A DNA stretch of 41,063 nt from a virus, in the IMG/VR virus record IMGVR_UViG_3300021197_001388, positions 1-41,063 of that record, one strand, 5' to 3'. The first letter of the stretch is position 1. Every line of letters starts with the position of its first letter. Of this stretch, positions 6,789-29,230 are shown piece after piece. The notes beneath the pieces were generated by a model. It was given only the letters and a program-made list of their open reading frames with translations. It was not told where the DNA came from and did not search any database. The translations under genes and the position numbers were made by a program.

Positions 6789-6796
6789 TATAAATA
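6789..6796 (+). promoter_or_regulatory. T4-type late promoter of the redox cassette
   Basis: A second perfect TATAAATA in the 84-base gap before the cytochrome c-copper monooxygenase gene. The predicted start is near 6802, with a leader of about 39 bases that carries a GTGGAGAA ribosome site before the ATG at 6841. It implies that the whole 6841-10527 cassette is transcribed late. Confidence 0.82.
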
Positions 6797-6840: not shown

Positions 6841-8157
6841 ATGAAGAAGTTTTTATTCCTATTACTATTGCCAATCAGCGCAATAGCTCAAACATACACA
6901 GATGATGTTGCAGAAATTATAAACAACAACTGTGTAACTTGTCACCGTCCTGGTGGTGTAGGCCCAATGAGTTTTGAATCTTACGATCAGGTAAGACCAT
7001 GGGCACCACTAATCCAATTGAAAGTCGCTTCAAGAGAAATGCCTCCTTATGCTTATGATCAGCATATCGGTATTCAAGACCTGGAAGGCGACTGGCGTTT
7101 AAGCGATGAGCAGATTGATACAATCGTTGCATGGGTAAATCAAGGTTCTCCTTACGGCGACCAAGATATAGTACCTCAGTTGCCAGAGATTCCAGATCCT
7201 GATGACTGGAGATTCTCTGCTATGTTCGGTCAACCTGATATGATTGTTGCTTCACAAGCATACGACATTCCTGCAAACGGAAATGACTTGTGGAGTAAGG
7301 AATTTGTAAACCCACAGCTTACAGAAAACAAGTGCATCAAAGCAGTACAAGTTAAGCCACGAGGCGATGCAGCAGCAGTTGTACATCACGCCAATTCAGA
7401 TGTGTATATGTATGACGAAGAAGGCGAGCTTGTTCCTTATGGTCAGTTGACTGAGTATGCAATGGGCAAATGGGGTGAAGTAATGCCCGAAGGTGTTTGT
7501 CGTACAATGCCAGCAGGTTCACTAGTACGTTGGGACATTCATATGTTCCCAGGTGGTGTTGGTGCAACTGCTGAAGGTGGCATGATCAAAGACAACGTAG
7601 TAGAGATTGGTCTTTGGTTCCACGAAGACGGATTTGAAGAGCAAGAAGATATCTACAATCAAGACCTTCGCTTGTATCCTCTAAGAGAGGGTTACGAAAA
7701 TGGTCACTTAATTGTACCCCCACATGGTTATGCTATGACTCAAGGGTTCCATAGTTTTGACCATCCTGTACGAATCGATAGCTTTCAGCCTCACGGACAC
7801 CTTCGTATGAATGCTGCCAGTTTAGAGATTTTTGATCCTAAGACAGGTCGTACAACGTCAGTTAGCCAAATTTCTAAATGGAGCGCAACCTGGCATCACA
7901 GCCATATCTATGCTGAAGATGTTGCTCCATTACTAGCACCTGGCGAGGTTTTAGTACTGAAGCAGTGGTATGATAATACTGCTGATAATCCCAACAACCC
8001 TGATCCTGATATGTGGGTAGTAGGTGGTAGCCGTACTGGTGATGAAATGTCACACGCATGGATTGCTGTTACCCATTTAGACGATGAAGGTTATGAAACA
8101 TTATTGGCCGAACGTAGAGAAAGTGAGGCAAGGAGTTTAGCAGGAAGTGATGATTAG
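6841..8157 (+). CDS. secreted cytochrome c-PHM copper monooxygenase fusion
   Basis: A 438-residue protein with a Sec signal peptide (residues 1-16, cut after AIA). A cytochrome c-like domain at about 20-110 holds one heme-binding CVTCH (Cys31, Cys34, His35). A copper type II, ascorbate-dependent monooxygenase-like domain (PHM fold) follows at about 120-420. All copper ligands of that fold can be placed: His182-His183 and His234 for the first copper, His318-x-His320 and Met403 for the second. Such enzymes hydroxylate C-H bonds with O2; the substrate here is unknown and the attached heme may deliver electrons. The protein would act in the periplasm. It lies behind a perfect late promoter, overlaps the next gene, and begins a six-gene cassette not expected in a phage. 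Confidence 0.88.
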   Translation: MKKFLFLLLLPISAIAQTYTDDVAEIINNNCVTCHRPGGVGPMSFESYDQVRPWAPLIQLKVASREMPPYAYDQHIGIQDLEGDWRLSDEQIDTIVAWVNQGSPYGDQDIVPQLPEIPDPDDWRFSAMFGQPDMIVASQAYDIPANGNDLWSKEFVNPQLTENKCIKAVQVKPRGDAAAVVHHANSDVYMYDEEGELVPYGQLTEYAMGKWGEVMPEGVCRTMPAGSLVRWDIHMFPGGVGATAEGGMIKDNVVEIGLWFHEDGFEEQEDIYNQDLRLYPLREGYENGHLIVPPHGYAMTQGFHSFDHPVRIDSFQPHGHLRMNAASLEIFDPKTGRTTSVSQISKWSATWHHSHIYAEDVAPLLAPGEVLVLKQWYDNTADNPNNPDPDMWVVGGSRTGDEMSHAWIAVTHLDDEGYETLLAERRESEARSLAGSDD

Positions 8158-8461
8158 AATTATTTTATTGATGGGTCTTTTGACTCATTTTGCAACAGCA
8201 CAAGAAACGGATTTTAGTAGTATTGAAACAAATTGGAGAGTATGTGCTACTTGCCATGGTAATAAAGGTGAGGGGAAGCCAGGCTTCCCTTCATTAAATA
8301 TATTAACGAGTGAGTACGTCATTGAAGCATTGACCGACTATAGAAACAATGTCTACCGAGGTGATATGAGTACTACTATGTTTGGTATGTCTGCTGCACT
8401 TACTGACGAACAAATTGAATTGTTTGGAAAATATGTTGAAGAGGTTTTGAGTAATGATTAG
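8150..8461 (+). CDS. small periplasmic cytochrome c
   Basis: About 103 residues, with a signal peptide (to about residue 18, FATAQ) and a class I cytochrome c domain: heme motif CATCH near residues 32-36, then GNKGEGKPGFPSL and a C-terminal helix (TDEQIELFGKYVEEV). Met residues at about 73, 77 and 80 (GDMSTTMFGM) can supply the axial ligand. It is the likely soluble electron carrier between the two copper monooxygenases and host redox partners. Heme attachment needs the host Ccm system. A GTG at 8147 is an alternative start one codon upstream. It overlaps the preceding gene by 8 bases and the following one by 8 bases. Confidence 0.88.
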   Translation: MIRIILLMGLLTHFATAQETDFSSIETNWRVCATCHGNKGEGKPGFPSLNILTSEYVIEALTDYRNNVYRGDMSTTMFGMSAALTDEQIELFGKYVEEVLSND

Positions 8462-9155
8462 AATATTATGTTTAATGATGTTGTCTTTTGCAGCATCGGC
8501 CCAAAATTTTGCCCTTCTTGATACAGAAGGCAATTATCATTTGATGAGATATTATGGTAACTATGATACAATTGCTATAATGACAGCATCAGCACAAAGT
8601 AGCGAAGAAGCAAAGCTGAGATTCTTTGCTACAGTCAATAGAGGAAGCACTGAGAAAACTAAATTTTTCTTACTAAATCCTACTGGCGAACCTAGGAACA
8701 CAGAACAAAACGCAGTACTTGAAGATGTTCCTATGTTGATGGATGATGCTAAAATAGTTTCAAAGGCTTTGGGTCTTACACAATTGAATGAAATTGTGTA
8801 CATGGATCCAATCACGGGTGAGATTGGCTTTAGGTCTATCATAGAAGAAGGTGAACCAATAGAAACTGATTGGGGTCAGCCTTCTTATACTAATGACATA
8901 GCACCTATACTTATTGACAATTGCGTTACATGTCATAGGTACGGTGGTATTGGACCATGGGCAATGACCGATCATGTGATTGTTCAAGCATTTGGTCCTG
9001 CAATAAGTGAAGCACTACTTACTAAACGTATGCCACCTGGACAATTAGATCCAACGATAGGTGAATTTACGAATGATATGAATTTAACTAACGAAGAACA
9101 ACAAAAACTTATTCAGTGGATCGCTAACGGTTCACCAGGAGACTACGATGAATAA
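8454..9155 (+). CDS. redoxin-like / cytochrome c two-domain protein
   Basis: A 233-residue exported protein (signal to about residue 16, SFAASA). Residues 18-135 resemble a thioredoxin/redoxin fold, but I see no CxxC pair there, so it may be structural or degenerate. Residues 140-230 repeat the cytochrome c-like domain of the first cassette gene, with heme motif CVTCH (Cys157, Cys160, His161), the same RxGGxGPW continuation and a shared MPP motif. From memory, some marine bacterial proteins join redoxin, this cytochrome c and a PHM domain in one chain; here the third domain is the next gene, overlapping by 8 bases. That suggests a split gene or a two-subunit form of the same enzyme. Confidence 0.85.
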   Translation: MIRILCLMMLSFAASAQNFALLDTEGNYHLMRYYGNYDTIAIMTASAQSSEEAKLRFFATVNRGSTEKTKFFLLNPTGEPRNTEQNAVLEDVPMLMDDAKIVSKALGLTQLNEIVYMDPITGEIGFRSIIEEGEPIETDWGQPSYTNDIAPILIDNCVTCHRYGGIGPWAMTDHVIVQAFGPAISEALLTKRMPPGQLDPTIGEFTNDMNLTNEEQQKLIQWIANGSPGDYDE

Positions 9156-10095
9156 ATGGCTAGCATTGTTAATATTGCCATCACTGGCTTTTGCACAAGA
9201 CCCATTGCGTCAATATGACGTACCTGAGACAAAGTGGACTGGAGCTTTGGAATTAAACAGAGAACCAGATTTGATCATTGACCTACCAGCACAAGAAATT
9301 CCAGCATCAGGCATGATTCCATATCGTTATGTTACAGTAGACGTTCCCTTAGATGAGGATCGTTGGGTTCAAGCAAGTGAGTGGCTGCCCGGTGACCGTA
9401 CTGTACTGCATCACACATTGAATCAATTAGTAGGACCTGAGTCAAAGCCCAGCTTTGGTGGCTTCTTAGGTAACCAGTCTGGTAGAGATGCGGACCAAGT
9501 TGATTTGGCTGCTTATGTACCCGGTGGCACAGCAACAGTATTCCCCGAGAACACAGGTGGCTTACTGAAAGCAGGTTCAAGTCTGCAACTACAACTTCAC
9601 TATACTACAAACGGTACTGCCGCAATTGACCGTAGTAAACTTGGTGTTTGGTTCTACCCAGAAGATCAAGTACCCGAAGAAAGAATGACGGGTATGTGTG
9701 CATGTATCTTCCCTGACTCATGGACAAACATTCCTCCAGGTGATCCTAACTTTGTACAGACAAAGAGTATTAAGACTCGCAACGATATTGAACTGCATAC
9801 TTTCTTACCACACATGCACTGGCGAGGTAAGAGCATGAAAGCAGTGGCTTACTATCCTGATGGTACACAAGAAAATCTAATCAATGTTGCTAACTACGAC
9901 TACGATTGGCAGCTTGCTTATACCTGGACAGAGCCTAAGTTTATTCCAGCGGGAACCACTATCACTGTAGATGGTGCGTTTGACAATTCAGCAATGAATC
10001 CTGCTAACCCGGATCCCGAGCGTTCAGTACCCTGGGGACAAATGTCAGAGGACGAAATGTTCTTTGGCGCAATGACATGGAAAAACCTGAAATAA
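9148..10095 (+). CDS. PHM-type copper monooxygenase subunit
   Basis: A 315-residue protein with a Sec signal (residues 1-16, SLAFA). It shows the copper type II monooxygenase ligands in good form: His88-His89 (VLHHTL), His151 (LHYTTNG), His222-x-His224 (LPHMHWRGKSM) and Met304 (QMSEDEMFF). Members of this fold use two separated copper atoms and O2 to hydroxylate substrates. There is no heme motif, so electrons probably come from the neighbouring cytochromes. The C-terminal QMSEDEM motif is closer to canonical PHM than that of the first cassette gene. The stop codon overlaps the strong ribosome site of pqqA. The substrate is unknown. Confidence 0.9.
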   Translation: MNKWLALLILPSLAFAQDPLRQYDVPETKWTGALELNREPDLIIDLPAQEIPASGMIPYRYVTVDVPLDEDRWVQASEWLPGDRTVLHHTLNQLVGPESKPSFGGFLGNQSGRDADQVDLAAYVPGGTATVFPENTGGLLKAGSSLQLQLHYTTNGTAAIDRSKLGVWFYPEDQVPEERMTGMCACIFPDSWTNIPPGDPNFVQTKSIKTRNDIELHTFLPHMHWRGKSMKAVAYYPDGTQENLINVANYDYDWQLAYTWTEPKFIPAGTTITVDGAFDNSAMNPANPDPERSVPWGQMSEDEMFFGAMTWKNLK

Positions 10096-10099
10096 GGAG
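10094..10099 (+). promoter_or_regulatory. strong Shine-Dalgarno AAGGAG of pqqA
   Basis: AAGGAG begins inside the TAA stop of the copper monooxygenase gene, 8 bases before the pqqA ATG at 10108. It is a strong ribosome site and fixes the start of the tiny gene. Confidence 0.75.
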
Positions 10100-10107
10100 A
10101 AAAAACT

Positions 10108-10179
10108 ATGTGGACCAAACCAACCTACCAAAAGATCCGTCTTGGATTTGAAGTTACTATGTACTTCAAGAACAGCTAA
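10108..10179 (+). CDS. pqqA: PqqA, coenzyme PQQ precursor peptide
   Basis: A 23-residue peptide, the usual PqqA length. It starts MWTKP, has RLGFEVTMYF in the middle and keeps Glu15 and Tyr19 in the E-V-T-x-Y motif, the two residues that PqqE cross-links to build pyrroloquinoline quinone. Pseudomonas and Klebsiella PqqA peptides begin MW(T/K)KP and carry the same G-(F/L)-E-V-T motif, so identification does not depend on a weak match. It has a strong AAGGAG ribosome site, and copC starts three bases after its stop. No pqqB, C, D or E is present in the window, so the host would have to process the peptide. The phage may raise PQQ supply for quinoprotein dehydrogenases late in infection; this is inference. 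Confidence 0.92.
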   Translation: MWTKPTYQKIRLGFEVTMYFKNS

Positions 10180-10182
10180 ACT

Positions 10183-10527
10183 ATGGAAAAAATAATAGCC
10201 TTTGTAGGACTGTGTTTATTAGCAGCACCTTTATTTGTACAGGCACATCCTAAGCTATTGGAGACTACCCCTGCCGCTGATTCTACTGTTGGGTCAGCAG
10301 CAGGGGTTTCCTTATCTTTCAATCAAGATGTGAGATTGCTCAAACTTTCTGTTACATCAGAAAACGGTATCGAGCTAGACAGCGATTTTAAAATAACACC
10401 AGAAAGTAAGAAAGATTATAATGTAGCTGTTGACAATATGGTTAAAGGAAAATTCACTGTAACTGCTTCTGTTGTAGGAGCAGATGGTCATACAGTTAGC
10501 AGGTCTTTTAGCTTTACCGTTGAATAG
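10183..10527 (+). CDS. copC: CopC-like periplasmic copper-binding protein
   Basis: A 114-residue protein with a signal peptide ending at VQA-21, leaving His22 as the mature N terminus. CopC proteins bind Cu(II) through the amino-terminal His plus an Asp and a His near the C terminus; here these are Asp101 and His103 in GADGHTVSRSFSF. The HPKLLETTPAADS opening and the beta-sandwich pattern fit the family. It probably delivers or buffers copper for the two copper monooxygenases upstream. It is translated directly after pqqA with a gap of three bases. Confidence 0.9.
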   Translation: MEKIIAFVGLCLLAAPLFVQAHPKLLETTPAADSTVGSAAGVSLSFNQDVRLLKLSVTSENGIELDSDFKITPESKKDYNVAVDNMVKGKFTVTASVVGADGHTVSRSFSFTVE

Positions 10528-10529
10528 CA

Positions 10530-10685
10530 ATGTCTCCTGCATTCTATGTGATGTATCTAGTACTCATTGTAGTGGACACTGCTATACACGTTATGATCCA
10601 AATGTACTTTGAAGGCCACCGAGCATTTGATGATAAATACAACGAATTCGAGGAAGAAGAGTTACTGAGATGGGATGGAAGTTAA
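10530..10685 (+). CDS. small single-span membrane protein
   Basis: A 51-residue protein: hydrophobic residues 3-26 (AFYVMYLVLIVVDTAIHVMI) form one membrane span, followed by an acidic tail (EFEEEELLRW). It starts two bases after the copC stop and overlaps the i-spanin-like gene by 16 bases. It may belong either to the redox cassette (a membrane anchor) or to the lysis genes. No family recognised. Confidence 0.65.
   Translation: MSPAFYVMYLVLIVVDTAIHVMIQMYFEGHRAFDDKYNEFEEEELLRWDGS
10632..10639 (+). promoter_or_regulatory. possible late promoter variant GATAAATA
   Basis: GATAAATA inside the preceding small gene, 31 bases before the i-spanin-like ATG at 10670. It is the same one-base variant as at 1260. 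It could separate spanin expression from the redox cassette, but may be chance within coding sequence. Confidence 0.3.
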
Positions 10686-16437: not shown

Positions 16438-16879
16438 TTGGCACTATCAGGGTGAAATATACACCGCTGATGACATTGATGATTATTATGGTTTTGTTTA
16501 TGAAATCACCGATCTCGAGCTCGGTAAAAAATACATAGGCAAAAAGTTCTTTTGGAATAAAAGAAAGCTACCCCCATTGAAAGGTAGGAAGAACAAAAGA
16601 ATAAAAACTGTAGAATCAGACTGGCGTAAGTATTACGGTTCAAGTGACACGGTTAAACAACTTGTTGAATCGAGTGGGCCAGAAAGATTTAAGAGAGAGA
16701 TTCTTGTCCTCTGCAAGACAAAAGGTGAGTGCTCGTACCACGAAGCCAAATTGCAGTTTGACAATGATGTACTTCTTAAAGATGAATATTATAATGAATT
16801 TATCGGAGTAAAAATACACTCCATCCATGTGAAGACATTGAGACCTGATTATGAAAGTGACGGAAACAAGAACACCTAA
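16427..16879 (+). CDS. SegE-like GIY-YIG protein
   Basis: A 150-residue protein with a GIY-YIG-type nuclease core: YGFVYEI at residues 21-27, KYIGKK at 35-40, a DWRKYYGSS segment and LCKTKGECSYHEAKLQFDNDVLL at about 95-117, which I recognise from the putative SegE-like proteins of T4-like phages. It may be a free-standing homing endonuclease or a domesticated relative, since it is found in fixed context beside nucleotide metabolism genes. The start is TTG at 16427; no ATG in frame fits better. It overlaps the next gene by 29 bases. Confidence 0.82.
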   Translation: MTNDWHYQGEIYTADDIDDYYGFVYEITDLELGKKYIGKKFFWNKRKLPPLKGRKNKRIKTVESDWRKYYGSSDTVKQLVESSGPERFKREILVLCKTKGECSYHEAKLQFDNDVLLKDEYYNEFIGVKIHSIHVKTLRPDYESDGNKNT

Positions 16880-17921
16880 TGGTGTTGAGGTTGAACCAGC
16901 ACAAAAAAGAAAATATGATGTTAGCGGTAGAACTTTTGAGTACACCGCCCCTTCTTGTGAAATCGTAACCTTCGAAGATTGTATACTGACTAGTGGTAGT
17001 TGGGAGTATGGTCTCGCAGGTATTGTTAAAGATAAAAAGTTCTATCACGAACGATTTACAAAGGACGCAAATAACTTCAGAATTAAAAGTCCTTTTTGGA
17101 CCAGTGCAAGAGGTAATTTTGATATTGAACTTGACGACGATTTCTTCTATAATTATGAGATGGATGAAGTTTTTACATGGTTCAATATTGGTCAATACTG
17201 GCACTGGTTCTTTGAGGATCTTCCCCTCATAAAGGCATTCAGAGAAAAGCCTGATATTCCTATTGTCACAAACAGTCTGATGCAATTCCAATTGGATTCG
17301 CTTTCGTTCTTTCCTGACATCAGGAATAGAATAGAAGCTGTCGACACACCTGCCGTGATCAAAGCAAATAAAGTTCATGCTGTAACATATCCAGCCATCT
17401 CGTATAGAGGTAAAGCTGCCTCATGGGCTGTCGAGTTCTTGAGAGACAATCTTATATCCGATGAGGAAGGTGAGCACAAACGAATTTACATATCACGTAA
17501 CGATGCAGTGGCAAGGAATGTCAAGAACGAACCTGCTGTCATCGACATGCTCGTTGAGGAGTTTGGCTTTGTACCTTTCAATACTCACAAAACAAACAGC
17601 ATGTCGAATATGCCTTTCAAAGAAAAGTTGCGACTCTTTACAACAGCCGATATTGTTGTATCACCAACTGGCGCTGGCTTAACTCACACACATGCTATGA
17701 AACCCGGTAGCACAGTTATCGACTTTAATCATAGTTTTGAAGTTACGGAAGAATGTGGTTGGAACAACATAGCAGACGTTTGCGATCTCAACTGGTATAC
17801 CATAGAAGCAGAAACGAAAGAGATTCCTACCGAGCGACCCAAGCCAAAGAATGCCCATATGGAAGTTGATGTTGAACTATTGAGAAAGACCGTAGATAAT
17901 GCAATTAATCAAAGAGCTTAA
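16851..17921 (+). CDS. GT61-family glycosyltransferase-like protein
   Basis: A 356-residue protein with the signature of the capsular/EGF-domain GT61 (DUF563) family: YWHWFFEDLPLI at 117-127, KRIYISRNDA near 210-219, and the nucleotide-sugar site VSPTGAGLTHTHAMKPGSTVIDF at 270-292. It would transfer a sugar to a surface glycan. It is the first gene of a 14-gene glycan island whose members overlap at nearly every junction, so they are probably cotranscribed. The donor and acceptor are unknown. Confidence 0.82.
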   Translation: MKVTETRTPNGVEVEPAQKRKYDVSGRTFEYTAPSCEIVTFEDCILTSGSWEYGLAGIVKDKKFYHERFTKDANNFRIKSPFWTSARGNFDIELDDDFFYNYEMDEVFTWFNIGQYWHWFFEDLPLIKAFREKPDIPIVTNSLMQFQLDSLSFFPDIRNRIEAVDTPAVIKANKVHAVTYPAISYRGKAASWAVEFLRDNLISDEEGEHKRIYISRNDAVARNVKNEPAVIDMLVEEFGFVPFNTHKTNSMSNMPFKEKLRLFTTADIVVSPTGAGLTHTHAMKPGSTVIDFNHSFEVTEECGWNNIADVCDLNWYTIEAETKEIPTERPKPKNAHMEVDVELLRKTVDNAINQRA

Positions 17922-18630
17922 CGGCCACAGTGGTGCTTCCGTATCTTTATACGATAATGGCACCGTTGTAAAGAATGGGTATAGCAAGGCTAGGCAGAGT
18001 GCTGAAATATTAGAAGCTCTGCCTTTCAACGCACCTAAGGTATACGAAGTGACTGACGAGAGTATAGTTATGGAATATATCAATGGTGACGACATGACAT
18101 CATTCTTAGAGCAAAATGGTAACGAAGGAGTAGATATGCTCCTTGCGTTTGTTGAAGAGTATTTCGACTGGTGCCTTTGTAACTCCGACGATTATAACTT
18201 CAGCAACGAGCTCGACGACAAAGTGTTTCAGATAGGTGATCATATAAACATAGCAAGCCTTGCTGATACATTAAAATTCAAAATGCCAAGAAGTTTGATC
18301 CACGGTGACTTTACATTCGACAATATACTGCATAAAAATGGGGAGTTTTATCTTATCGACGCTAACCCAACAGAGCTCAATAGTATCTACTTTGATGGAT
18401 CTAAACTGAGACAAGATATCGATGGCTTCTGGTTCTTGAGAGCAAGAGAAGATAAAATCAATTTTAAAATATCGTGTAAAAAGATAAGCGAGCAGTTACA
18501 GTCGAAGTATGATTTCATGAACAACAATTCATTATATTGCTTTATGCTTAGTCGAATACTACCTTACTGTAAAAATAAAGAAACAACAGAATTCCTTACT
18601 ATAGAGATGGATAGAATATGGCCGTTATAA
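17899..18630 (+). CDS. APH/choline-kinase-like phosphotransferase
   Basis: A 243-residue protein of the aminoglycoside phosphotransferase/choline kinase fold. The catalytic loop HGDFTFDN is at 135-142 (Asp137 base, Asn142 metal ligand) and the second metal Asp is Asp154 in LIDANP; Lys25 (VVKNGYSK) is the likely ATP lysine. It phosphorylates a small alcohol, sugar or polar head group. The next gene encodes a nucleotidyltransferase, so the two may form a kinase-nucleotidyltransferase pair as LicA and LicC do for phosphocholine. The substrate is not shown by the sequence. It overlaps both neighbours. Confidence 0.8.
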   Translation: MQLIKELNGHSGASVSLYDNGTVVKNGYSKARQSAEILEALPFNAPKVYEVTDESIVMEYINGDDMTSFLEQNGNEGVDMLLAFVEEYFDWCLCNSDDYNFSNELDDKVFQIGDHINIASLADTLKFKMPRSLIHGDFTFDNILHKNGEFYLIDANPTELNSIYFDGSKLRQDIDGFWFLRAREDKINFKISCKKISEQLQSKYDFMNNNSLYCFMLSRILPYCKNKETTEFLTIEMDRIWPL

Positions 18631-19649
18631 TACCATGTGCTGGTCAAAGCTCACGATACCCTGGTACGAGACCGAAGTACTTGCTAACTGTGGCAGATGG
18701 CGACTGCTTATTTGAGAAAGCTGCAAACCGGTATGTCGACGAAACTGATGTTCACTTCATAATCTTAAAAGAGCATGCGATAAAGTACGACGCTGAGATA
18801 GCCATTTCTAAGGTATATGGCTGGCGTGACAACGTTTTTATTCATATTTTGGACAATCCGACATCAGGTCCTGCTGAAACTTCATATCACGTTGCTAAGA
18901 AGCTAGGAGACCAACCTATCTTGATACAAGATTGTGACAGCTTCTTCACCTGTCCTTTGAGCGATGAGAACTACGTGTGTACTGTTGACCTAAGAGATAA
19001 CTTGGACGTAACAAACGTTGCAGCAAAGAGCTTTGCAGTTACTAATGAGCAAGGTGTCCTCACAAACATTGTTGAGAAGTCAGTTGTCAGTAATCATATA
19101 TGTGTAGGTGGTTATGGATTCAAGACAGCTAGTATGTTCTGTGATTCGTTTGACAGGCTGAGTGAGATACATGAAGGTGAGATATTCGTATCGCATATTA
19201 TAAAGGAGCTTTTGTCGTCCAATGTATTTGTTGCCAAGGACGTTGATAATTATGTCGACCTTGGAACGTACAAGGAATTTGTTGAATACAATAAACAACG
19301 ACAGACAATCTTTTGCGACATTGATGGCACTGTCTTTTACAATCAGTCCAAGCTCTTCAGTAACGACTATTCTAAAATGCCACGACCTATCCCCAACGCT
19401 GTCAACTATCTACTAGAGAAGCAAAGGAACGGAGCCACGATAATATTCACGACATCTCGTCCTGAAAGATTTGGCGATGTTACGGAAAAGGGACTAAAAG
19501 ACTGCGGCTTTAGGGACGTGAGAGTGCTCTATGACATACCTCATGCACCGAGAGTGCTGATAAACGACACAAGCAAGACGAATCCATACCCATCTGCATC
19601 AGCTATAAATATACCAAGAGATGATAATGATTATTGGGGTAAGATGTGA
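18618..19649 (+). CDS. sugar/choline-P nucleotidyltransferase-HAD phosphatase fusion
   Basis: A 343-residue two-domain protein. Residues 1-225 are a nucleotidyltransferase with the N-terminal CAGQSSRYPGTRPKYLL loop (Arg13, Lys20) and a metal-binding DCD at 105-107. Residues 229-343 are a HAD-family phosphatase with motif I DIDGT (Asp234, Asp236), motif II TTSR (278-281) and motif IV INDTSK (Asp317). It should activate a phosphorylated precursor to an NDP or CMP form and hydrolyse a phosphate. The previous gene is a kinase that could supply the precursor. It overlaps the next gene by 4 bases (GTGA). Confidence 0.82.
   Translation: MAVIIPCAGQSSRYPGTRPKYLLTVADGDCLFEKAANRYVDETDVHFIILKEHAIKYDAEIAISKVYGWRDNVFIHILDNPTSGPAETSYHVAKKLGDQPILIQDCDSFFTCPLSDENYVCTVDLRDNLDVTNVAAKSFAVTNEQGVLTNIVEKSVVSNHICVGGYGFKTASMFCDSFDRLSEIHEGEIFVSHIIKELLSSNVFVAKDVDNYVDLGTYKEFVEYNKQRQTIFCDIDGTVFYNQSKLFSNDYSKMPRPIPNAVNYLLEKQRNGATIIFTTSRPERFGDVTEKGLKDCGFRDVRVLYDIPHAPRVLINDTSKTNPYPSASAINIPRDDNDYWGKM
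19604..19611 (+). promoter_or_regulatory. possible internal late promoter TATAAATA
   Basis: A perfect TATAAATA inside the 3' end of the fusion gene, 34 bases before the GTG start at 19646. A start near 19617 would leave a leader of about 29 bases. It could switch on the second part of the glycan island late, or be a chance match in coding sequence (it encodes the residues AINIP). Confidence 0.4.
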
Positions 19650-20623
19650 AAACGTATCTGGCAAACTATCTACATGATAGAGGTATCATTGGACCACAAC
19701 TTGTCGATCAATTGAATGACATTGAGTATTTTCTAACCAAAGAAAACTTTGTCACCAAGTCAAGCGAGTATTATGAGTTGTTGTTTGACGAACAGCCTGA
19801 CCCAGTTGTGTTCACTGGTCACAAGTTCTTTCTCACAAAAGTAGTTCATCCACTTTTCGCACGTACTGATCTAATGGAGAGAGGCCTCCATCTTTTCAGA
19901 ATGATGTTCTCACGCCATGCCCATAATTTGAGAGGCAGAGGCATTGAGGAGCATGAGAAGAACGGTGTAATGGTTTTCGAAAACTTTTTTGAAACAGAAG
20001 ATGCCGAAAAGTTCAAAGAATTTATCCTCGCACAACCTAAGAGCGAGAATATACAGAACTTCAATAAGATTACAAATATATTACCTGATGATTTGTATGA
20101 GAAGGTTAAGCATGAGGTCTATCCCATCTGTGCCAAAGCTGTTCACAGGCCAAGTACGTCACCAGCAGCATGGGAACACTTTCAAGCTACATCATATGTC
20201 CAGCGATTAGATAACAGACCAAATGATGGCGACATACAAAAAGTATGCCATAGTGATGTATTCTATCCTTGCCTTAAATATTGGTACTTTCCTGAAGACG
20301 TTAATGACGGTACGTTCATGTATGCCAAAGGCAGCACAATGCTAGATGAGGATCAATTGGATTTCTATTTTAGAGAGTCACTTGCTGTCACTAATAATAC
20401 ATGGGACAGGAAAAGAAACAAAGGTCACGGAGAAGGTTCGTTCAGGGCTCTGCCTGACGACTTGGCTAGCATGAATCTTAAACTAGAACCTATAGTAGCT
20501 AAAGCGAACTCGCTAGTGATTGCTGACACAAGTGGTTTTCACTGTCGGGGTAATGTGAAAGAAATGTCAACAAGAAATGCACTGCATGGTGCGATAAGAG
20601 TGGAGACCCCTTTTGACACTTAA
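19646..20623 (+). CDS. PhyH-like 2-oxoglutarate/Fe(II) dioxygenase
   Basis: A 325-residue protein. The Fe(II) facial triad is His202 and Asp204 (CHSDVF) and His299 (SGFHCRG), with Arg310 (STRNALHG) placed to bind 2-oxoglutarate. This matches phytanoyl-CoA dioxygenase-like enzymes, which hydroxylate or oxidise C-H bonds. In a glycan island it may modify a sugar or lipid head group. The start is a GTG at 19646, since no ATG is near. It overlaps the radical SAM gene by 11 bases. Confidence 0.82.
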   Translation: MKTYLANYLHDRGIIGPQLVDQLNDIEYFLTKENFVTKSSEYYELLFDEQPDPVVFTGHKFFLTKVVHPLFARTDLMERGLHLFRMMFSRHAHNLRGRGIEEHEKNGVMVFENFFETEDAEKFKEFILAQPKSENIQNFNKITNILPDDLYEKVKHEVYPICAKAVHRPSTSPAAWEHFQATSYVQRLDNRPNDGDIQKVCHSDVFYPCLKYWYFPEDVNDGTFMYAKGSTMLDEDQLDFYFRESLAVTNNTWDRKRNKGHGEGSFRALPDDLASMNLKLEPIVAKANSLVIADTSGFHCRGNVKEMSTRNALHGAIRVETPFDT

Positions 20624-21548
20624 ACCAATAACATATGCGTATTTGGAAACAACCAACTACTGCAACCTTGACTGTAGCTTCTGTAATAGAAAGGAGGTAA
20701 TTGGTGACCTTGAGCATATGCCAATCGACAAATGGCGTACAATGCTTGATAACCTAAAGGACCAGCCTATCAAGGAAGCTAAGTTGATGGGCATGGGAGA
20801 ACCATTTCTCCATCCACAGTTCGATCAGATATGTAAGATATTTAAAGAGTACTTTCCGGAAGCGTTTCTGATTGTAGCTACTAACTGTCAATATAAGTTT
20901 ACAGACAAGATTGAAAATGCGTTTAAGTATATTGATCTCGTATACTTTAGTATAGATGGTTATAAAGAAAGTTACGAAAGAGACAGAGCTCCAGCAAAGT
21001 GGCCGAAGCTAATAAAGTTCCTTGATGAATTCAAGAAGCGTGAGCGTCACGGTTGTAGAGTGACATGCAATTATGTTGTGAATCCAGACAACGTACAAGA
21101 CATCCAAACTATTTACGATAACATTGTTGTCCCTTACGAGCTTGAGGAGTTAAGATTAAATATAGCTCAAGATTGGTCACCCGATACGTCAATGCCTGGT
21201 GGCTATACGTTAGAACAAATTCAGTACTTGAGAGAGAATTGGAAGGACAATATCAAAGGCAAGTCTGAGTGGAACTTCGATCAATGTTTCTGGCCACAGG
21301 AAGGAATATACACAACTGTGGATGGAAGAGTATTGATGTGTGCACTCAACACTGCCGAGCCTGGCTTTGGTAATTTGTTCGATCAAAGTATAGACGAAAT
21401 AAGATCCTCTGATCGATACTCGGGAATCAGATCCTCTTGTGAATTGAATCATCCAACGTCTCACTGTGAAAATTGCTCTTACAAAGAGCTTACTCCGTTA
21501 TTACAGAAATTGGAAGTACATAATGAATTGTCTGAATCATCTAAATGA
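20613..21548 (+). CDS. radical SAM/SPASM protein
   Basis: A 311-residue protein with the radical SAM cluster motif Cys17-x3-Cys21-x2-Cys24 (YCNLDCSFCN), the GMGEP motif at 60-64, and a SPASM-like C-terminal cluster region with Cys225, Cys243, Cys276, Cys285 and Cys288 (CENCSYKE). SPASM proteins often modify peptides or sugars. Here the neighbours (dioxygenase and aminotransferase) suggest a sugar modification such as carbon-skeleton or deoxy chemistry. It starts at TTG 20613 inside the previous gene and overlaps the next by 26 bases. Confidence 0.87.
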   Translation: MTLKPITYAYLETTNYCNLDCSFCNRKEVIGDLEHMPIDKWRTMLDNLKDQPIKEAKLMGMGEPFLHPQFDQICKIFKEYFPEAFLIVATNCQYKFTDKIENAFKYIDLVYFSIDGYKESYERDRAPAKWPKLIKFLDEFKKRERHGCRVTCNYVVNPDNVQDIQTIYDNIVVPYELEELRLNIAQDWSPDTSMPGGYTLEQIQYLRENWKDNIKGKSEWNFDQCFWPQEGIYTTVDGRVLMCALNTAEPGFGNLFDQSIDEIRSSDRYSGIRSSCELNHPTSHCENCSYKELTPLLQKLEVHNELSESSK

Positions 21549-22524
21549 TATTCAAAGAATAAAGGGCAACTATCCAAAACCAGGTCTAATTAGGCTAGGT
21601 TCTGCAGAACGTGATGAGCCCTTTCCTAAACTAATGTGGGAAAAGTTTCTTGACTGTTTGAGGGAGACTGATGTTAGGTACTATCCCGATTTTGATTATG
21701 CGTTACGAGTCTTGAGCGATCACGCAAAGGTTCCTACCGATTGTCTAACTATGGGTCATGGTTCAGACAGTGTAATTAAAAATGTTTTTGAATGCTTTGT
21801 AAGCGAAGGATCGAAAGTAGTAACAACAGATCCTTGCTTTCCTATGTATAAAATCTATGGCCAGATAAGGAATGCTAATGTTGAAGCAGTTCCCTACAAC
21901 AATAAACGTACAGATGTACCTGCAATAATAGATGCCATAGACGCGAACACCTCTCTTGTTATAGTTAGCAATCCAAACAGTCCGATGGGTGATTTGATTC
22001 ATGATATTAAAGACATTATCGAAGCTGCTGCAAAGAAAGATTGTATGGTTTTGGTAGACGAAGCGTATGGTGAGTTTGCCAACATGCCCAGCATGGTTAA
22101 TGAATATGAAAATTATTCTAATCTCATTGTTACAAAAACATTCTCCAAAGCAGTTGGGTCTGCAGGAATAAGATTTGGTTATGGCGTCTCAAACAGAGCC
22201 GTGACGGGTATACTCGCAAAGGTAAAGAGTATCTATGAGATAACAGGACCAACAATTAAGTGGATGGAAATGGTCATTCACAATTGGGATTTAGTTCTTG
22301 AATATACTAATCAAGTTGCTGTAAACAAATACGAAGTAATAAGAGAATACGAAAAACAGGGCCATGAAATACATCACGGATACTGCAACTGGATTCATAC
22401 AACAAAAACTGAATTTCACGAATCAATCGATACAAAACAATGTACCCTACCTTGGGATGACAGACAGTGGACGAGATTATGCATTCCATCTGATAAGCAA
22501 ACACTAGAGTTAATTCTTAAATGA
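21523..22524 (+). CDS. HisC-like PLP aminotransferase
   Basis: A 333-residue fold-type I aminotransferase of the class I/II (histidinol-phosphate aminotransferase) group. Visible residues: SNPNSPMG with Asn152, Asp179 and Tyr182 (VDEAYGEF), the PLP lysine Lys209 in TKTFSKAVG, and Arg217 (GIRFGY). I chose the ATG at 21523 with an upstream GGAAG; an earlier in-frame ATG at 21466 lies deep inside the radical SAM gene. The protein probably transfers an amino group to a phosphorylated or keto intermediate of the island, not to histidine. Confidence 0.88.
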   Translation: MNCLNHLNDIQRIKGNYPKPGLIRLGSAERDEPFPKLMWEKFLDCLRETDVRYYPDFDYALRVLSDHAKVPTDCLTMGHGSDSVIKNVFECFVSEGSKVVTTDPCFPMYKIYGQIRNANVEAVPYNNKRTDVPAIIDAIDANTSLVIVSNPNSPMGDLIHDIKDIIEAAAKKDCMVLVDEAYGEFANMPSMVNEYENYSNLIVTKTFSKAVGSAGIRFGYGVSNRAVTGILAKVKSIYEITGPTIKWMEMVIHNWDLVLEYTNQVAVNKYEVIREYEKQGHEIHHGYCNWIHTTKTEFHESIDTKQCTLPWDDRQWTRLCIPSDKQTLELILK

Positions 22525-23339
22525 AAATAGCATTGTGTCTAAGCGGTCAAATGAGAGCAAATCGCTTTTGTATTCATACACTCAATACTGCGTTCCCTGG
22601 ATGCAGTGTCGACATATATGCTACTGTGTGGGATTATGAGGACCGTACAAATATAGAAATGCTTAGAGAAATGGTCAATGTAGTGCACCTTCATAAAGTT
22701 ACAAATGACGATCTAAGTAAGTACAAAAATTTTGAGTCGTTTGCAATAAGGAACGGTTTTTTCGGTTTGAAAAACGTAAAGACCTGGAAGCAAATTCCTG
22801 TGTGGAACTTAACACGCATAGAACTGATGGCTCAAAAAAGTTTCGAACGAGTACCTGCCGAAGGGTATGACTTTATTGTACGCTCCCGCTTCGATACTCG
22901 TTACCTAAAAGATTTACGGCCATTACTTGACAAAGATATGCTATTGCTTTCAGACGACATAGGAGGGAGCGCTGAGTGGGATAATTGGAAGAGCACGCGT
23001 ATGGTGTTCGATGGATTTGCTGCCGGTACCTATCAAACTATGAAAGAATATTACAACTTTGTAGACTGGCTACCAAGATACTTCGAGTTTCATAAAGAAA
23101 CACTGAAAGCAGAGCGCACGCTAGGTTGGTATCTTAGTAAGCATACACAGCTTGTTCAAAAGCATGCTAGGGACATACTAGGTATACAAATTAACAAAAT
23201 TGAATGGTACAATAGATCTAGAAATCTCCCCACACAATCACTGCAAAATAAACAGCAATCAACATTCGATTTTTATATTAGAGATCTGAAAGAAAACCAC
23301 CCGGAGCTCTACGAGGGTGTGGCAGCTTGCCTTGATTAA
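22521..23339 (+). CDS. glycosyltransferase-like protein (SGQMR type)
   Basis: A 272-residue protein beginning MKIALCLSGQMRANRF, with the central motif YDFIVRSRFDTRYLKDL at about 115-132. I recognise this as an uncharacterised glycosyltransferase-like family common in marine phage and bacterial polysaccharide clusters. It is a paralogue of the gene at 23972, which shares the MKIA-x3-SG start and the YDYIVRLRYD motif. ATGA overlap with the gene before it. Donor and acceptor unknown. Confidence 0.7.
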   Translation: MKIALCLSGQMRANRFCIHTLNTAFPGCSVDIYATVWDYEDRTNIEMLREMVNVVHLHKVTNDDLSKYKNFESFAIRNGFFGLKNVKTWKQIPVWNLTRIELMAQKSFERVPAEGYDFIVRSRFDTRYLKDLRPLLDKDMLLLSDDIGGSAEWDNWKSTRMVFDGFAAGTYQTMKEYYNFVDWLPRYFEFHKETLKAERTLGWYLSKHTQLVQKHARDILGIQINKIEWYNRSRNLPTQSLQNKQQSTFDFYIRDLKENHPELYEGVAACLD

Positions 23340-23994
23340 TTTTACTGTATATTGTGCGCATCGTTCAGGCTCCAATTTTCTTCAAAGCCTCATTACAGAA
23401 AATTTTCATTCGTGTAGAGCGTGGGAGCTAACACGCTTGCATGTTGGTTGGAAGCACGGTGCTTTTCATCCTAGCTACATGAGGAGGAAAAACTTTTGTT
23501 TTGTGATGGCTAGGCATCCGATCAAATGGGTAAACTCGTGCATGAGATTCAATGCTGATATGTGGAAATGGTGGGATGTAAAAATAGATGAAGAAGACGG
23601 TATAGGTCTATCTTTTCCCTACAACGATGTGCATATCAGTGTCAAGCGAATGATTGATAAATGGAACGTATTCTACAAAGGATGGTTGGATCATAGTAAA
23701 TGTAAATTTATTTGGTATGCTGACCTCTTGAACATAGAGCTGAGAAATAGTATACTAGTGGATATAGAAAACGATAATAAACTCATAAGGTGTAGAAAGG
23801 AATGGGCTGTTCCAAACAAAGTACAGCATAGTGAGAGCTATACCGAACAAAAGAGACTGATGGAACGAGATCTATTTGAAAACAATATGCTCAACGACAA
23901 ACCTCATATTGTCGAATACATAAACAACAATATTGATAAAGACTTACTTAATAGAATGATGGAACTTAGTTATGAAAATTGCAGTCGTTTATAG
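23317..23994 (+). CDS. sulfotransferase-like protein
   Basis: About 225 residues. CAHRSGSNFLQSL near the N terminus resembles the 5'-phosphosulfate loop of PAPS sulfotransferases and FVMARHPIKWVNS the 3'-phosphate site. It would move sulfate from PAPS to a sugar. The start is uncertain: GTG at 23317 overlaps the previous gene by 23 bases; TTG at 23332 would remove five residues. It is the first of two sulfotransferase-like genes that alternate with two glycosyltransferase-like genes. Confidence 0.72.
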   Translation: MWQLALINFTVYCAHRSGSNFLQSLITENFHSCRAWELTRLHVGWKHGAFHPSYMRRKNFCFVMARHPIKWVNSCMRFNADMWKWWDVKIDEEDGIGLSFPYNDVHISVKRMIDKWNVFYKGWLDHSKCKFIWYADLLNIELRNSILVDIENDNKLIRCRKEWAVPNKVQHSESYTEQKRLMERDLFENNMLNDKPHIVEYINNNIDKDLLNRMMELSYENCSRL

Positions 23995-24823
23995 TGGCGA
24001 ACCAAGATCCTTTGAGCATGTAAAATCCCAACACGAAGAAGAGTTTCTTCAAGGATTGGATTACGATACATATCACTCAACGTGGATAAAGACTACTGAG
24101 GATGAGTGCAAGCTAATAGAGCAAGCTGCCAATTTCAAAGGTCTTAACAGGGTAGATTATAATTGCACTGAAAGACCTGATCTTTGGCACTTTGAAGCTA
24201 CGCTTCTAAACAGTAAGAAAAACCATCCTATATTCATGTTGGGTCGTATTCAGTATATGACATCAGCTGCACTGGATCTTATCTTGAAGTCACGTATCGA
24301 GTATGATTATATCGTCAGACTTAGATACGACTTTGAATTTAAAGGCAAGCTGAAAGATTATTTACCGATGGTTCAAAAAGGTAACGATATTGTAATAACC
24401 AGAAAGATGGGCGGCAAGTCCAGTCCGATAAATGTATGGGATGGCTTTGCATTTGGCGGGTACACAGCAATGTGCTGGTACTTTCATTTTAATCGATGGA
24501 TACCTTTTTCGTTATTCAACAGCGATGTAGCAAACTGGAAGTTCCAACCTGAGTTTGTTTATGGTACTTACTTGAGACACGTTGGATTGAATGTAGTAGA
24601 GAGCGATGTACAACCTACTCACATCTACCCGGATGACAATAAAGTCGACTGGCACAGGGAAAAGAGGACCATACAATACTATCGAGACCTCGCAAACTTC
24701 CATCCTCAGTTCTATACGCAACGAGATGGTAAGCTAACAATGGAGAATGATAGCCCCTGGGTGTCTGATGATCTTATAATAAATGTTTTGAGTGATGAAG
24801 GACTCGTGTGTAATGAAGTATAA
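23972..24823 (+). CDS. glycosyltransferase-like protein, paralogue
   Basis: A 283-residue paralogue of the protein at 22521: same opening (MKIAVVYSGEPR), same YDYIVRLRYDFEFKGKL motif at about 111-127, and a comparable WDGFAFGGY segment where the other has FDGFAAGTY. It begins 23 bases inside the sulfotransferase-like gene. The pair may add two related residues of one glycan. Confidence 0.7.
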   Translation: MKIAVVYSGEPRSFEHVKSQHEEEFLQGLDYDTYHSTWIKTTEDECKLIEQAANFKGLNRVDYNCTERPDLWHFEATLLNSKKNHPIFMLGRIQYMTSAALDLILKSRIEYDYIVRLRYDFEFKGKLKDYLPMVQKGNDIVITRKMGGKSSPINVWDGFAFGGYTAMCWYFHFNRWIPFSLFNSDVANWKFQPEFVYGTYLRHVGLNVVESDVQPTHIYPDDNKVDWHREKRTIQYYRDLANFHPQFYTQRDGKLTMENDSPWVSDDLIINVLSDEGLVCNEV

Positions 24824-25451
24824 CAGACAAACGCCATGCGTGTATAAAAAGATCAATGTTGTATATCACGGTGTTCCTAAAAATGCATCAACAAGTGTAA
24901 AGAACGCCCTGTACGAATACGAGCACGGTCATCCATTTGATGGTAACAAGCAATGGATCCACAAAGGCAATGAAAAAGGCGGGTCTATATATCCTAGCTT
25001 AGATAGTATACGATCTGACTTTGAAGACGCTCTACACTTTACTGTCGTACGTCATCCCTTCGAAAGGTTCAAAAGTTTTTATAGTGATATATTTGCAAGA
25101 ACTACGAACATAAGAGTGGGAGCCCCTCCGTTCTATACTGACAATCAAATAAAGATAGAAGAGAAACCCATAGACGAAGTGATAGATATGATCGAACAGT
25201 TTAGTGACGATGAAGCCGATGAGCACTTTGCATCGCAGTCGTCTTTCGTTCACCATGACAATTGTTGTATAGTGAAAATGGAAGACATGGAAGCTGGTTG
25301 GATCGATATTTGTGAACGGTTAAGTGTTGAACATAGACCGTTATCAGTATATAATAAGTCTGAAGATATAGTTATGTTAAACGATAATCAGAAGCAAAGA
25401 CTATACCAACGCTACTCTGATGACTTCAATAATTTTGATTATAAGGTGTAA
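24813..25451 (+). CDS. sulfotransferase-like protein, family 2 type
   Basis: A 212-residue protein with VVYHGVPKNASTSVKNAL, the phosphosulfate-binding loop of the sulfotransferase family 2, and VVRHPFERFKSFY, the 3'-phosphate-binding segment. I chose the ATG at 24813; an ATG at 24792 would extend seven residues into the previous gene. It probably sulfates a glycan. The next gene begins three bases after the stop. Confidence 0.78.
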   Translation: MKYNRQTPCVYKKINVVYHGVPKNASTSVKNALYEYEHGHPFDGNKQWIHKGNEKGGSIYPSLDSIRSDFEDALHFTVVRHPFERFKSFYSDIFARTTNIRVGAPPFYTDNQIKIEEKPIDEVIDMIEQFSDDEADEHFASQSSFVHHDNCCIVKMEDMEAGWIDICERLSVEHRPLSVYNKSEDIVMLNDNQKQRLYQRYSDDFNNFDYKV

Positions 25452-25454
25452 CCA

Positions 25455-26189
25455 ATGAGTGATCCGATTAGAATCTTTATAGGCACATCGGCGAACGGTG
25501 AAGACGCCGTTGCTGAAATGGTTTACGAATATTCGATTCGTAAGAATGCTTCTGTTGATGTTGAGATAACATGGATGAAGCAATCACATTGGGATTCATC
25601 TATATGGGGTTGTTGGGAAACGCAAATGTGGTCGACTCCGTTCTCAGGATTCCGTTGGGCAATACCAGAAGCCTGTGGATTTCAAGGACGAGCTATCTAT
25701 ACCGATTGCGACATGATCAACTTTAGAGACATTAACGAACTAATCAATATCGACTTAGAAGGTAAGCCTGTTGCTGCTCGACGTGGTAGTCGTTTCGGTG
25801 GTCACGAGTTCTGCGTTATGGTTTTTGATTGTGCAGCTTTTGATGATCATTCTATGCCTGCTTCACGAATGAAGGTTATACCAGAAGCTCATCATAGAAT
25901 GATACATAAGTTCTCGGGTTCCGATCTTGTTAAAGATTTGGATCCCAAATGGAATTGTCTTGATGGAGAAAACCTACCATTGGATGAGATTTGGCACTTA
26001 CATTATACAAATATGGCAACACAACCTTGGCAGCCAGGTTGGTATACAGGAGAAGTGAAAGAGCATCCTAGACCTGAGATTCGGGATATATGGTATGAAA
26101 TGAAAGACGAGGCAATCGCAGCTGGTTACAAAGTGAGTGATTACGAACCCGATGAACCATTTGGTGAATACAGTATAATTGGTAAATGA
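25455..26189 (+). CDS. glycosyltransferase, GT-A/GT8-like
   Basis: A 244-residue protein with a GT-A fold pattern: a beta-alpha N terminus (IRIFIGTSANGED), a metal-binding TDCDM at 83-87 and the C-terminal motif LHYTNMATQPWQPGWYTG. It transfers a sugar from a nucleotide donor. I recall close relatives in T4-like marine phages. It lies between a sulfotransferase-like gene and a capsule-type gene, with only one base before the next ATG. Confidence 0.82.
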   Translation: MSDPIRIFIGTSANGEDAVAEMVYEYSIRKNASVDVEITWMKQSHWDSSIWGCWETQMWSTPFSGFRWAIPEACGFQGRAIYTDCDMINFRDINELINIDLEGKPVAARRGSRFGGHEFCVMVFDCAAFDDHSMPASRMKVIPEAHHRMIHKFSGSDLVKDLDPKWNCLDGENLPLDEIWHLHYTNMATQPWQPGWYTGEVKEHPRPEIRDIWYEMKDEAIAAGYKVSDYEPDEPFGEYSIIGK

Positions 26190-26190
26190 C

Positions 26191-27108
26191 ATGAAAAACG
26201 AGAAAATAGGTATCTTTCTTAACAGTGCTAACGACAATGGATTCAGATCTCTGTTGTATGACTTCCAGTGGGGTATTACAGAACTGGCTGGAGATGCCTT
26301 CATAACACAAGATGATAACGACATTGATAAATGTGATGTCGCTGTATTCTTTGGATCGTGGAAAGATAGGAACACGCCGTGGCATAATTGCAAACGAAAG
26401 ATTGTTGCAAGTGGTAAACCATTCGTTTGTATAGAAACTCCTTTAATCGGCCGAGGTCCTGTTACTGACATTCTTCAAGACCAATGGTATCGAATAGGTG
26501 TCAATGGCTTCTTAGCTGACACTGGCCGATTCTATAGACAGAATCAAAATTATCCAGCAGATCGTTGGAACAAAATATCCAATGCTCTCGGTGTTCAATT
26601 GAAGTCTTGGAGCGACAGTGGCGATGTTGTTATCGTTGCATTGCAACTACCAGGCGATGCTTCGTTAAGAGGTACGAATATAACTGAATGGGCTGCCAAC
26701 ACAATAGAACAGCTGCGAGAGCACACCAACAGACCAATTATCTTACGTACACCACAATTGGATAGAGAGTTTGACCGTGATAACATATTACGTATCACAC
26801 GGGTCGATGGTGTATCAATGCAACAGGGTACAAAAGAAAATCTATTTGCGACTTTAGATGATGCTTACGCTACTGTAACTTATAGCTCTGGTTTTGGTAT
26901 CGACTCGGTTATTAGAGGTACGCCTACTATTGCTATGGATCCAGGTAACTTTGCCTACTCATTAGGTAACAATAAATTATCGCAGATAGAAAATCTAATT
27001 CGTTCCAATGACAGGCAGCAGTGGTTAAATAATCTGGCTTATGCTCAATGGTCACGTCAAGAGATTAAAAATGGCGAAGCCTGGGCACATATAAGACATC
27101 AGCTATGA
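26191..27108 (+). CDS. capsule-type glycosyltransferase-like protein
   Basis: A 305-residue protein with the sequence FFGSWKDRNTPWHNCKR, KPFVCIETPLIGRGPV and a C-terminal TYSSGFGIDSVIRGTPTIAMDPGNFAY. The last segment resembles the nucleotide-sugar site of KpsS/KpsC-type capsule proteins. I chose the ATG at 26191, right after the previous stop, over a TTG at 26179. It overlaps the methyltransferase by 4 bases (ATGA). Confidence 0.72.
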   Translation: MKNEKIGIFLNSANDNGFRSLLYDFQWGITELAGDAFITQDDNDIDKCDVAVFFGSWKDRNTPWHNCKRKIVASGKPFVCIETPLIGRGPVTDILQDQWYRIGVNGFLADTGRFYRQNQNYPADRWNKISNALGVQLKSWSDSGDVVIVALQLPGDASLRGTNITEWAANTIEQLREHTNRPIILRTPQLDREFDRDNILRITRVDGVSMQQGTKENLFATLDDAYATVTYSSGFGIDSVIRGTPTIAMDPGNFAYSLGNNKLSQIENLIRSNDRQQWLNNLAYAQWSRQEIKNGEAWAHIRHQL

Positions 27109-28567: not shown

Positions 28568-28758
28568 GCATTCAATACTATCATCCAACACTAAACAAAA
28601 CAATTACAATCGAAGAAGGTTTCAATGGTGGTGTTACTACCGTAACAGAGACCAACGGAGGCCAGCACACACAGTCACTTACGATGCGTGAGGACGATGT
28701 GAACCATTTCGTTGAAGGTCTCATAAGTAACGGCTGGCTGAAAAGGCAGCAACTCTGA
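28564..28758 (+). CDS. small hypothetical protein
   Basis: A 64-residue protein with a Thr/Gly-rich N-terminal half and a helical C terminus (VNHFVEGLISNGWLKRQQ). It overlaps the glycosyltransferase stop by 4 bases (ATGA), so it is translated with the island, but its composition does not suggest an enzyme. No family recognised. Confidence 0.65.
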   Translation: MSIQYYHPTLNKTITIEEGFNGGVTTVTETNGGQHTQSLTMREDDVNHFVEGLISNGWLKRQQL

Positions 28759-28759
28759 G

Positions 28760-28788
28760 TTGTCTTTTACACCGACATACCTTATAAT
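28760..28788 (+). promoter_or_regulatory. sigma70-like promoter TTGTCT-17-TATAAT
   Basis: -35 TTGTCT (28760-28765), 17-base spacer and a consensus -10 TATAAT (28783-28788), between two genes. The predicted start, near 28795, coincides with the ATG of the next gene, so the transcript may be leaderless. Confidence 0.7.
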
Positions 28789-28794
28789 ATTGTT

Positions 28795-29229: not shown

Positions 29230-29230
29230 T

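Follow-up and report, generated by a model that had tools for sequence, protein, structure and literature searches.

A stretch of viral DNA of 41,063 bases, corresponding to an IMG/VR virus record with both ends open and hereafter termed the window, contains at positions 6841-10527 six adjacent genes encoding proteins A, B, C, D, PqqA and CopC. The reading favored here, with a probability of roughly 0.6, is that these genes form a late auxiliary metabolic cassette that originated in Pseudohongiella/OM182-type bacteria and that sustains periplasmic oxidation and host respiration. The phage would add to the host periplasm two cytochrome c-linked PHM-fold copper monooxygenases, one being A and the other C together with D, along with B as a mobile cytochrome c and CopC as a copper-binding protein; it would also provide PqqA for PQQ synthesis. 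In the pathway envisaged, a PHM protein would use O2 for periplasmic hydroxylation of a carbon substrate, a host PQQ dehydrogenase would oxidize the resulting alcohol, and the electrons would pass to c-type cytochromes, from which some would return to the PHM copper and the remainder would reach a terminal oxidase. Host respiration would in this manner be kept going during virion production. It is inferred that the enzymes are catalytically active, that cytochromes serve as their reductant, that PQQ is limiting and that there is an energetic benefit.

Table 1. Features of the cassette and its immediate surroundings in the window.
Feature	Position	Strand	Description
TATAAATA, T4-type late promoter -10 element	6789..6796	+	exact match, 44 bases upstream of ORF A
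ORF A	6841..8157	+	signal peptide, cytochrome c (CVTCH) and PHM-fold copper monooxygenase (predicted); 438 aa
ORF B	8150..8461	+	small secreted cytochrome c (CATCH); ATG at 8150
ORF C	8454..9155	+	signal peptide, redoxin-like domain and cytochrome c (CVTCH)
ORF D	9148..10095	+	signal peptide and PHM-fold copper monooxygenase (predicted); 315 aa
PqqA	10108..10179	+	23 aa, MWTKPTYQKIRLGFEVTMYFKNS; Shine-Dalgarno AAGGAG in front
CopC-domain copper-binding protein	10183..10527	+	PF04234
Small membrane protein	10530..10685	+	directly 3' of the cassette, conserved with it

The six ORFs all lie on the plus strand and either overlap their neighbors or are separated by 3-12 bases (Table 1). Each of the genes reported in the preliminary description is present where it was placed, and the identities proposed for them were upheld. 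The three CxxCH heme motifs reported there correspond to one each in A, B and C, while the five Sec-type signal peptides are those of A, B, C, D and CopC, whose N-termini are Sec-like as judged by eye, in support of a periplasmic destination for the products. Assignment of the cassette to the lysis region likewise holds, with lysozyme (position 4873) and lipase-like (5333) genes before it and Rz-like (10670) and Rz1-like (11016) genes after it; past the latter, the window encodes a primase, ribonucleotide reductase, exonucleases and PhoH. Homologues of the small membrane protein that follows the cassette adjoin D in many viral loci.

In searches of Pfam, A and B matched the cytochrome c family PF00034 with 22.6 and 27.7 bits, respectively, against a cut-off of 21.3, the margin for A being modest, while PqqA matched PF08042 (36.8 bits; cut-off 21.1) as well as TIGR02107 (40.9 bits; cut-off 20). 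CopC exceeded the gathering score of PF04234 (58.8 vs. 23.3 bits) and fell under the cut-off of the NCBIfam equivalog NF033814 (52.4 vs. 95 bits), and is thus considered a CopC-domain protein, not the equivalog. The PHM parts of A and D missed the Pfam cut-off, D scoring 11.6 bits with PF03712 (gathering score 23), and the Pfam match of C itself was also under the cut-off. No family was found for A, C or D in NCBIfam or for any of A-D, PqqA and CopC in PHROGs, and a search of PDB sequences with the A and D profiles returned nothing meaningful. Of the profile assignments anticipated earlier, those to cytochrome c and CopC were obtained, whereas that to PHM fell short by sequence and was recovered by structure.

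AlphaFold2 models of A and D, built from alignments of 14 homologues of each and of modest confidence (pLDDT of 66 for A and 62 for D), served as queries in Foldseek. With A, the top 30 matches were all to PHM or dopamine beta-hydroxylase (DBH; best E-value 2e-9, probability 1.00), and with D, the top 29 were all to PHM. VIA-align, run on D only, aligned this protein with DBH at a Z-score of 16.0 (3.5 A over 262 residues) and with PHM at Z-scores of 13-15.5, unrelated entries scoring about 8 or below. As such, D can be regarded as a relative by fold that lies outside the Pfam family as curated. A and D are, moreover, paralogues (hhalign, 99.9%). The full set of PHM copper ligands ascribed to these proteins was found to be kept in their homologues. 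In A, the ligand motif H182 H183 H234 H318 H320 M403 shows no variation among 71 rows from phages and 131 from hosts, while in D, H88, H89, H151, H222 and H224 are invariant in 61 phage rows and M304 is present in all 59 rows that reach this position, two fragments stopping short of it. The CxxCH motif proved invariant as well. Taking these models together with an assignment of ligands to CuH and CuM that rests on motif order (HH, H; HxH, M), without residue-level superposition, A and D are predicted PHM-fold copper monooxygenases, each with six candidate copper ligands.

Homologues of B were detected in 24 viral loci. C and D had been listed as separate proteins. Although they are indeed encoded by two ORFs, they jointly match a single host redoxin-cytochrome c-PHM protein of 575 residues (L303:6778-8502), which matches AhpC-TSA/Redoxin in Pfam. 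C aligns with the first half of this protein (36% identity over the length of C) and D with the second (58% identity), such that C and D together represent a split form of one host protein. D of most phages is a fusion of cytochrome c and PHM, the redoxin part having been lost; among kin of the window, C bears the cytochrome part, joined to the redoxin-like domain.

Relatives of A and D are encoded in 150 and 104 stretches of IMG/VR, respectively, on contigs that carry genes for major head protein, portal, scaffold, protease, tail tube and helicase. Of the 38 distinct viral loci in which the order could be tested, 35 have A immediately before D. A tblastn search of 50,697 phage records with A, D and the cytochrome c-D variant yielded no match.

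The cassette had also been described as following a late promoter. The count of TATAAATA within the 41-kb AT-rich window alone is unremarkable, with five sites against 2.6 expected and five being reached in 10 of 100 shuffles. In 23 out of 64 different viral loci, the element falls in the 120 bp that precede A, as compared to a mean of 1.4 and a maximum of 6 for random windows, and sits 33-72 bases before the start codon. In a stricter comparison, involving a slightly different start rule and loci that are related to each other (Fisher p 2e-4), the element preceded 31% of A genes, 12% of the other ORFs there and not one of the 57 D genes. This distribution is consistent with an A-D operon that has a T4-type late promoter at its head, and the comparison across loci supports the promoter originally proposed. 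The cassette would, judging from this motif, be transcribed late.

The mechanism outlined above draws mainly on the organization of related genes in hosts. In 20 host genomes, PHM-like matches number 19-54 per genome (one protein may count twice), and PQQ alcohol dehydrogenases scoring over the curated cut-off are found in all 20, along with many further PQQ-propeller matches. In nine host genomes (loci L298, L299, L306, L307, L320 and L324-L327), a divergent PQQ dehydrogenase gene is followed by genes for a c1-like product, a cytochrome c-PHM protein and a quinohaemoprotein PQQ dehydrogenase, the c1-like product being secreted and related to 'c1'. The connection with host PQQ dehydrogenases suggested in the preliminary description is hence strengthened by a cytochrome c-PHM gene lying between two PQQ dehydrogenase genes. 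Host A-type genes, in turn, form arrays of 2-5 paralogues with c1, and at 17-19 of the 73 host loci, such arrays have genes for a GMC dehydrogenase and a Gluconate_2-dh3 subunit next to them. Such gene sets have the anatomy of a system that hydroxylates and then dehydrogenates to cytochrome c, and constitute the main support for the mechanism. As the operons encoding host monooxygenases of this kind also encode alcohol dehydrogenases of the PQQ or GMC flavin type, the pathway is likely, and direct wiring from a PQQ dehydrogenase through a cytochrome to a copper monooxygenase is, on the basis of these operons, plausible. Counting against this, the host operons inspected combine PHM genes with a c1-like gene that the phages lack; when the host neighbor genes c1, GMC, MFS and cupin were sought in viral loci, none was found.

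The PqqA peptide is consumed one-for-one in the making of PQQ. PqqA of the window retains the cross-linked Glu and Tyr (E-x3-Y motif, GFEVTMY) and is near-identical to host PqqA MWTKPTYQKIRLGFEVTMYFKTV, with the host peptides of two pqqA-positive genomes being two or three residues removed from it, rendering a PQQ-making host plausible. Across the 20 host genomes, pqqA, pqqC and pqqE occur in seven, always as a set, with the other 13 containing none of the three; among G017 and its relatives, pqqC was found in 17 of 58 genomes. Host genomes without the three genes, including the single-chromosome assemblies G008, G015 and G019, probably scavenge PQQ. In such hosts, phage PqqA would be useless, unless the true host resembles the seven positives.

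Among the 59 phage D loci that could be tested, 11 have PqqA next to D, mostly beginning 1-12 bases past the D stop codon, and in nine distinct viral loci PqqA lies within 12 bp after D. A degenerate PqqA pattern retrieved 24 IMG/VR contigs, of which about ten are without PHM genes in the DNA covered. In an annotated phage collection, credible PqqA matches were obtained in ten records, namely, the methylophages Venkman, MEP301, MEP401, MEP402 and P19250A, four Melnitz strains and one uncultured podovirus. The ORF is complete (23-24 codons) and preceded by a ribosome-binding site in each representative inspected; it is either unannotated or, in Melnitz and the uncultured podovirus, overlaid by a CDS called on the opposite strand. 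Methanol oxidizers depend on a PQQ enzyme, and the presence of pqqA in cultured phages of such bacteria supports the proposed role. P19250A does carry pqqA, contrary to the statement that this phage carries none of the auxiliary genes considered in a study that reported PqqA and methanol dehydrogenase genes in the Lake Baikal viruses VP_266 and VP_139 (PMC7678222, 2020).

These distributions bear on whether the window contains two separate modules that merely lie side by side, with PqqA serving any host quinoprotein and the PHM pair serving an unrelated oxidation, and with no common chain. Counting against the favored reading, phages may carry PqqA and PHM genes independently of each other: PqqA adjoins a minority of D loci, is absent from most PHM phages and is found by itself in further phages, among them methylophages that have no PHM. 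On the other hand, operons of nine host genomes join cytochrome c-PHM to PQQ dehydrogenases, and in the nine viral loci noted above PqqA comes right after D. The existence of two independent modules is accordingly deemed unlikely, if still a serious contender. A broader proposal can be made only tentatively, its odds being judged somewhat short of even. Here, the phage would possess self-contained, cytochrome-driven (i.e., ascorbate-free) copper hydroxylation coupled to host PQQ dehydrogenases, and the supply of PqqA would represent a general phage strategy against quinoprotein-oxidizing hosts, shared by unrelated methylotroph and Pseudohongiella-type phages.

Alternatively, the monooxygenases could modify a peptide or lipid of the cell surface or outer membrane through hydroxylation, or perhaps amidation of the type known from animal PHM, for instance to block superinfection or prepare for lysis. 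Such modification would be in line with the PHM/DBH fold and with the placement of the cassette between lysozyme/lipase and Rz genes, as well as with the proximity of lysozyme to the A-D pair in several other phages. Yet, the pair is found elsewhere in some phages, in the tail or RNR region, no PAL lyase gene was seen within the block, and the host relatives, residing as they do in alcohol dehydrogenase operons and paralogue arrays, suggest catabolism. A role in surface modification is thus considered improbable.

The predicted mature N-terminus of CopC is a His, and a DGH motif is found near the C-terminus. The protein is 73% identical to the CopC ORF of one viral locus (L005) and, among viral loci, is confined to the window's close kin. 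Matches to CopC and pqqABC in 'Acinetobacter phage MD-2021a' were set aside, as the sequences involved resemble bacterial contigs deposited under a phage name. The pairing of CopC with copper enzymes might indicate that the late-infection role of the cassette is to manage copper, oxygen or redox stress, and not to provide metabolic supply. However, the limited distribution of CopC and the fact that all of the monooxygenases keep their catalytic residues, beyond the needs of copper storage, render this explanation very improbable.

Returning to the reading of the cassette as host-derived metabolic genes, the bacterial proteins closest to A, with identities of up to 83%, are from Pseudohongiella/OM182-type marine gammaproteobacteria. 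In quick trees prepared without bootstrap, phage A sequences fall into two main clades, one with 13 rows and one with 28, inside host sequences (support of 97 and 100), such that cassette A genes were probably acquired from hosts twice, while phage D sequences form a single clade (support of 99) among host redoxin-cytochrome c-PHM proteins. One 'viral' A row clusters with host sequences and is probably a bacterial contig. A and D are under strong purifying selection, with dN/dS relative to the nearest relatives (L001 and L002) of 0.09-0.10 for A, 0.09-0.12 for C and 0.03-0.04 for D, and relative to more distant kin, where dS is near saturation, of 0.04-0.10 for A and 0.05-0.06 for same-type D. 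The preliminary description had raised the prospect of an assembly chimera absent from related phages; that host DNA was wrongly assembled into a viral contig is, despite the proteins being host-derived and a few IMG/VR entries (L104 and L105) looking bacterial, scarcely credible, given the near-identical blocks (97-99%) in the independent contigs L001, L002 and L003, the phage genes on either side and the phage-specific clades with support of 97-100. The cassette comprises genuine host-derived, recurrent auxiliary metabolic genes within phage genomes, maintained by purifying selection.

PqqA in phages was already known. In the freely accessible literature covered, no earlier description of a PHM cassette in phages was found, an absence that is weak evidence. 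If the favored reading is true, then phages reprogram the periplasmic respiration of an uncultured marine lineage, extending such intervention beyond photosynthesis, sulfur and carbon metabolism. The cassette also suggests, for an uncharacterized enzyme family of very large size, a function that can be tested, given the number of PHM-like matches per host genome. Moreover, with the 23-codon pqqA having been overlooked in cultured methylophages, the control that phages exert on PQQ supply is open to testing with laboratory phage-host pairs that already exist.

In terms of known systems, the cassette resembles VP_266 and VP_139, where phage-borne PqqA was proposed to boost a host PQQ enzyme (PMC7678222). 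There, however, the enzyme is methanol dehydrogenase, the viruses are methylotroph phages, and neither a monooxygenase nor a cytochrome appears in the main text, whereas the window presents copper monooxygenase and cytochrome genes in phages of other gammaproteobacteria. According to work cited in PMC5987398, a fungal PQQ-dependent pyranose dehydrogenase drives LPMO, and thus a PQQ dehydrogenase feeds a copper monooxygenase outside the cytoplasm; this is an analogy only, involving another monooxygenase fold, fungi and a polysaccharide substrate. The host cytochrome c-PHM and redoxin-cytochrome c-PHM proteins of Pseudohongiella/OM182-type bacteria are direct relatives of A (up to 83%), D (58%) and C (36%), yet C and D of the window are separate pieces of what is a three-domain protein in hosts, and the phages are without the c1-like partner gene. 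With the PHM/DBH family, A and D share the two-domain fold and matching candidate copper ligands (HH..H, HxH..M), while differing in being less than 20% identical, bacterial or viral, and fused to or encoded beside c-type cytochromes. Finally, viral pmoC and amoC are also phage-borne parts of a copper monooxygenase system, each being a membrane subunit of another enzyme family, as compared to the complete soluble enzymes plus electron carriers that the window encodes.

Examination of 20 Pseudohongiella/OM182-type host genomes (2-6.6 Mb) revealed 19-54 matches per genome resembling peptidylglycine alpha-hydroxylating monooxygenase (PHM), where one protein can give two, and dozens to the PQQ propeller, whereas pqqA/C/E were missing from 13 of the 20. 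These 13 are apparent PQQ scavengers containing many PQQ enzymes. In each of the 19 regions examined, the host PHM gene adjoined c1, whose product matched no Pfam family and which was not found in phages.

A, the phage cytochrome c-PHM fusion, also occurs on host contig L218; this copy, placed within a phage clade, may reflect a prophage or transfer back. The A protein of IMG/VR contig L104 clusters with host sequences, and no recognised phage genes neighbour A in L104 or L105, both probably bacterial.

Elsewhere in the window, a gene run resembles a cluster for surface glycans or modification; several of its members lack a PHROG match.

Coordinates of features
Feature	Location	Description
Gene run	window 16851-30274	~12 genes, 200-350 aa each; products include radical SAM, glycosyltransferase, methyltransferase, sulfotransferase-like
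c1	L220:1203-2141	secreted protein, ~300 aa
c1	L201:6769-7722	as above
c1	L298:5638-6522	as above
A copy	L218:6456-7799	

In two 'Acinetobacter phage MD-2021a' records (CAKLQF020000010.1, CAKLQH020000055.1), pqqA adjoins annotated polyphosphate kinase and pqqB/pqqC genes; these are probably bacterial contigs misfiled as phage. Complete pqqA genes, unannotated or overlaid by an antisense CDS call, are present in cultured methylophages MT375522, KX815270, MW452941, OP830906, OP830907 and MZ577095-MZ577098 (loci L309-L313, L316), the hosts of which are methanol-oxidising bacteria.
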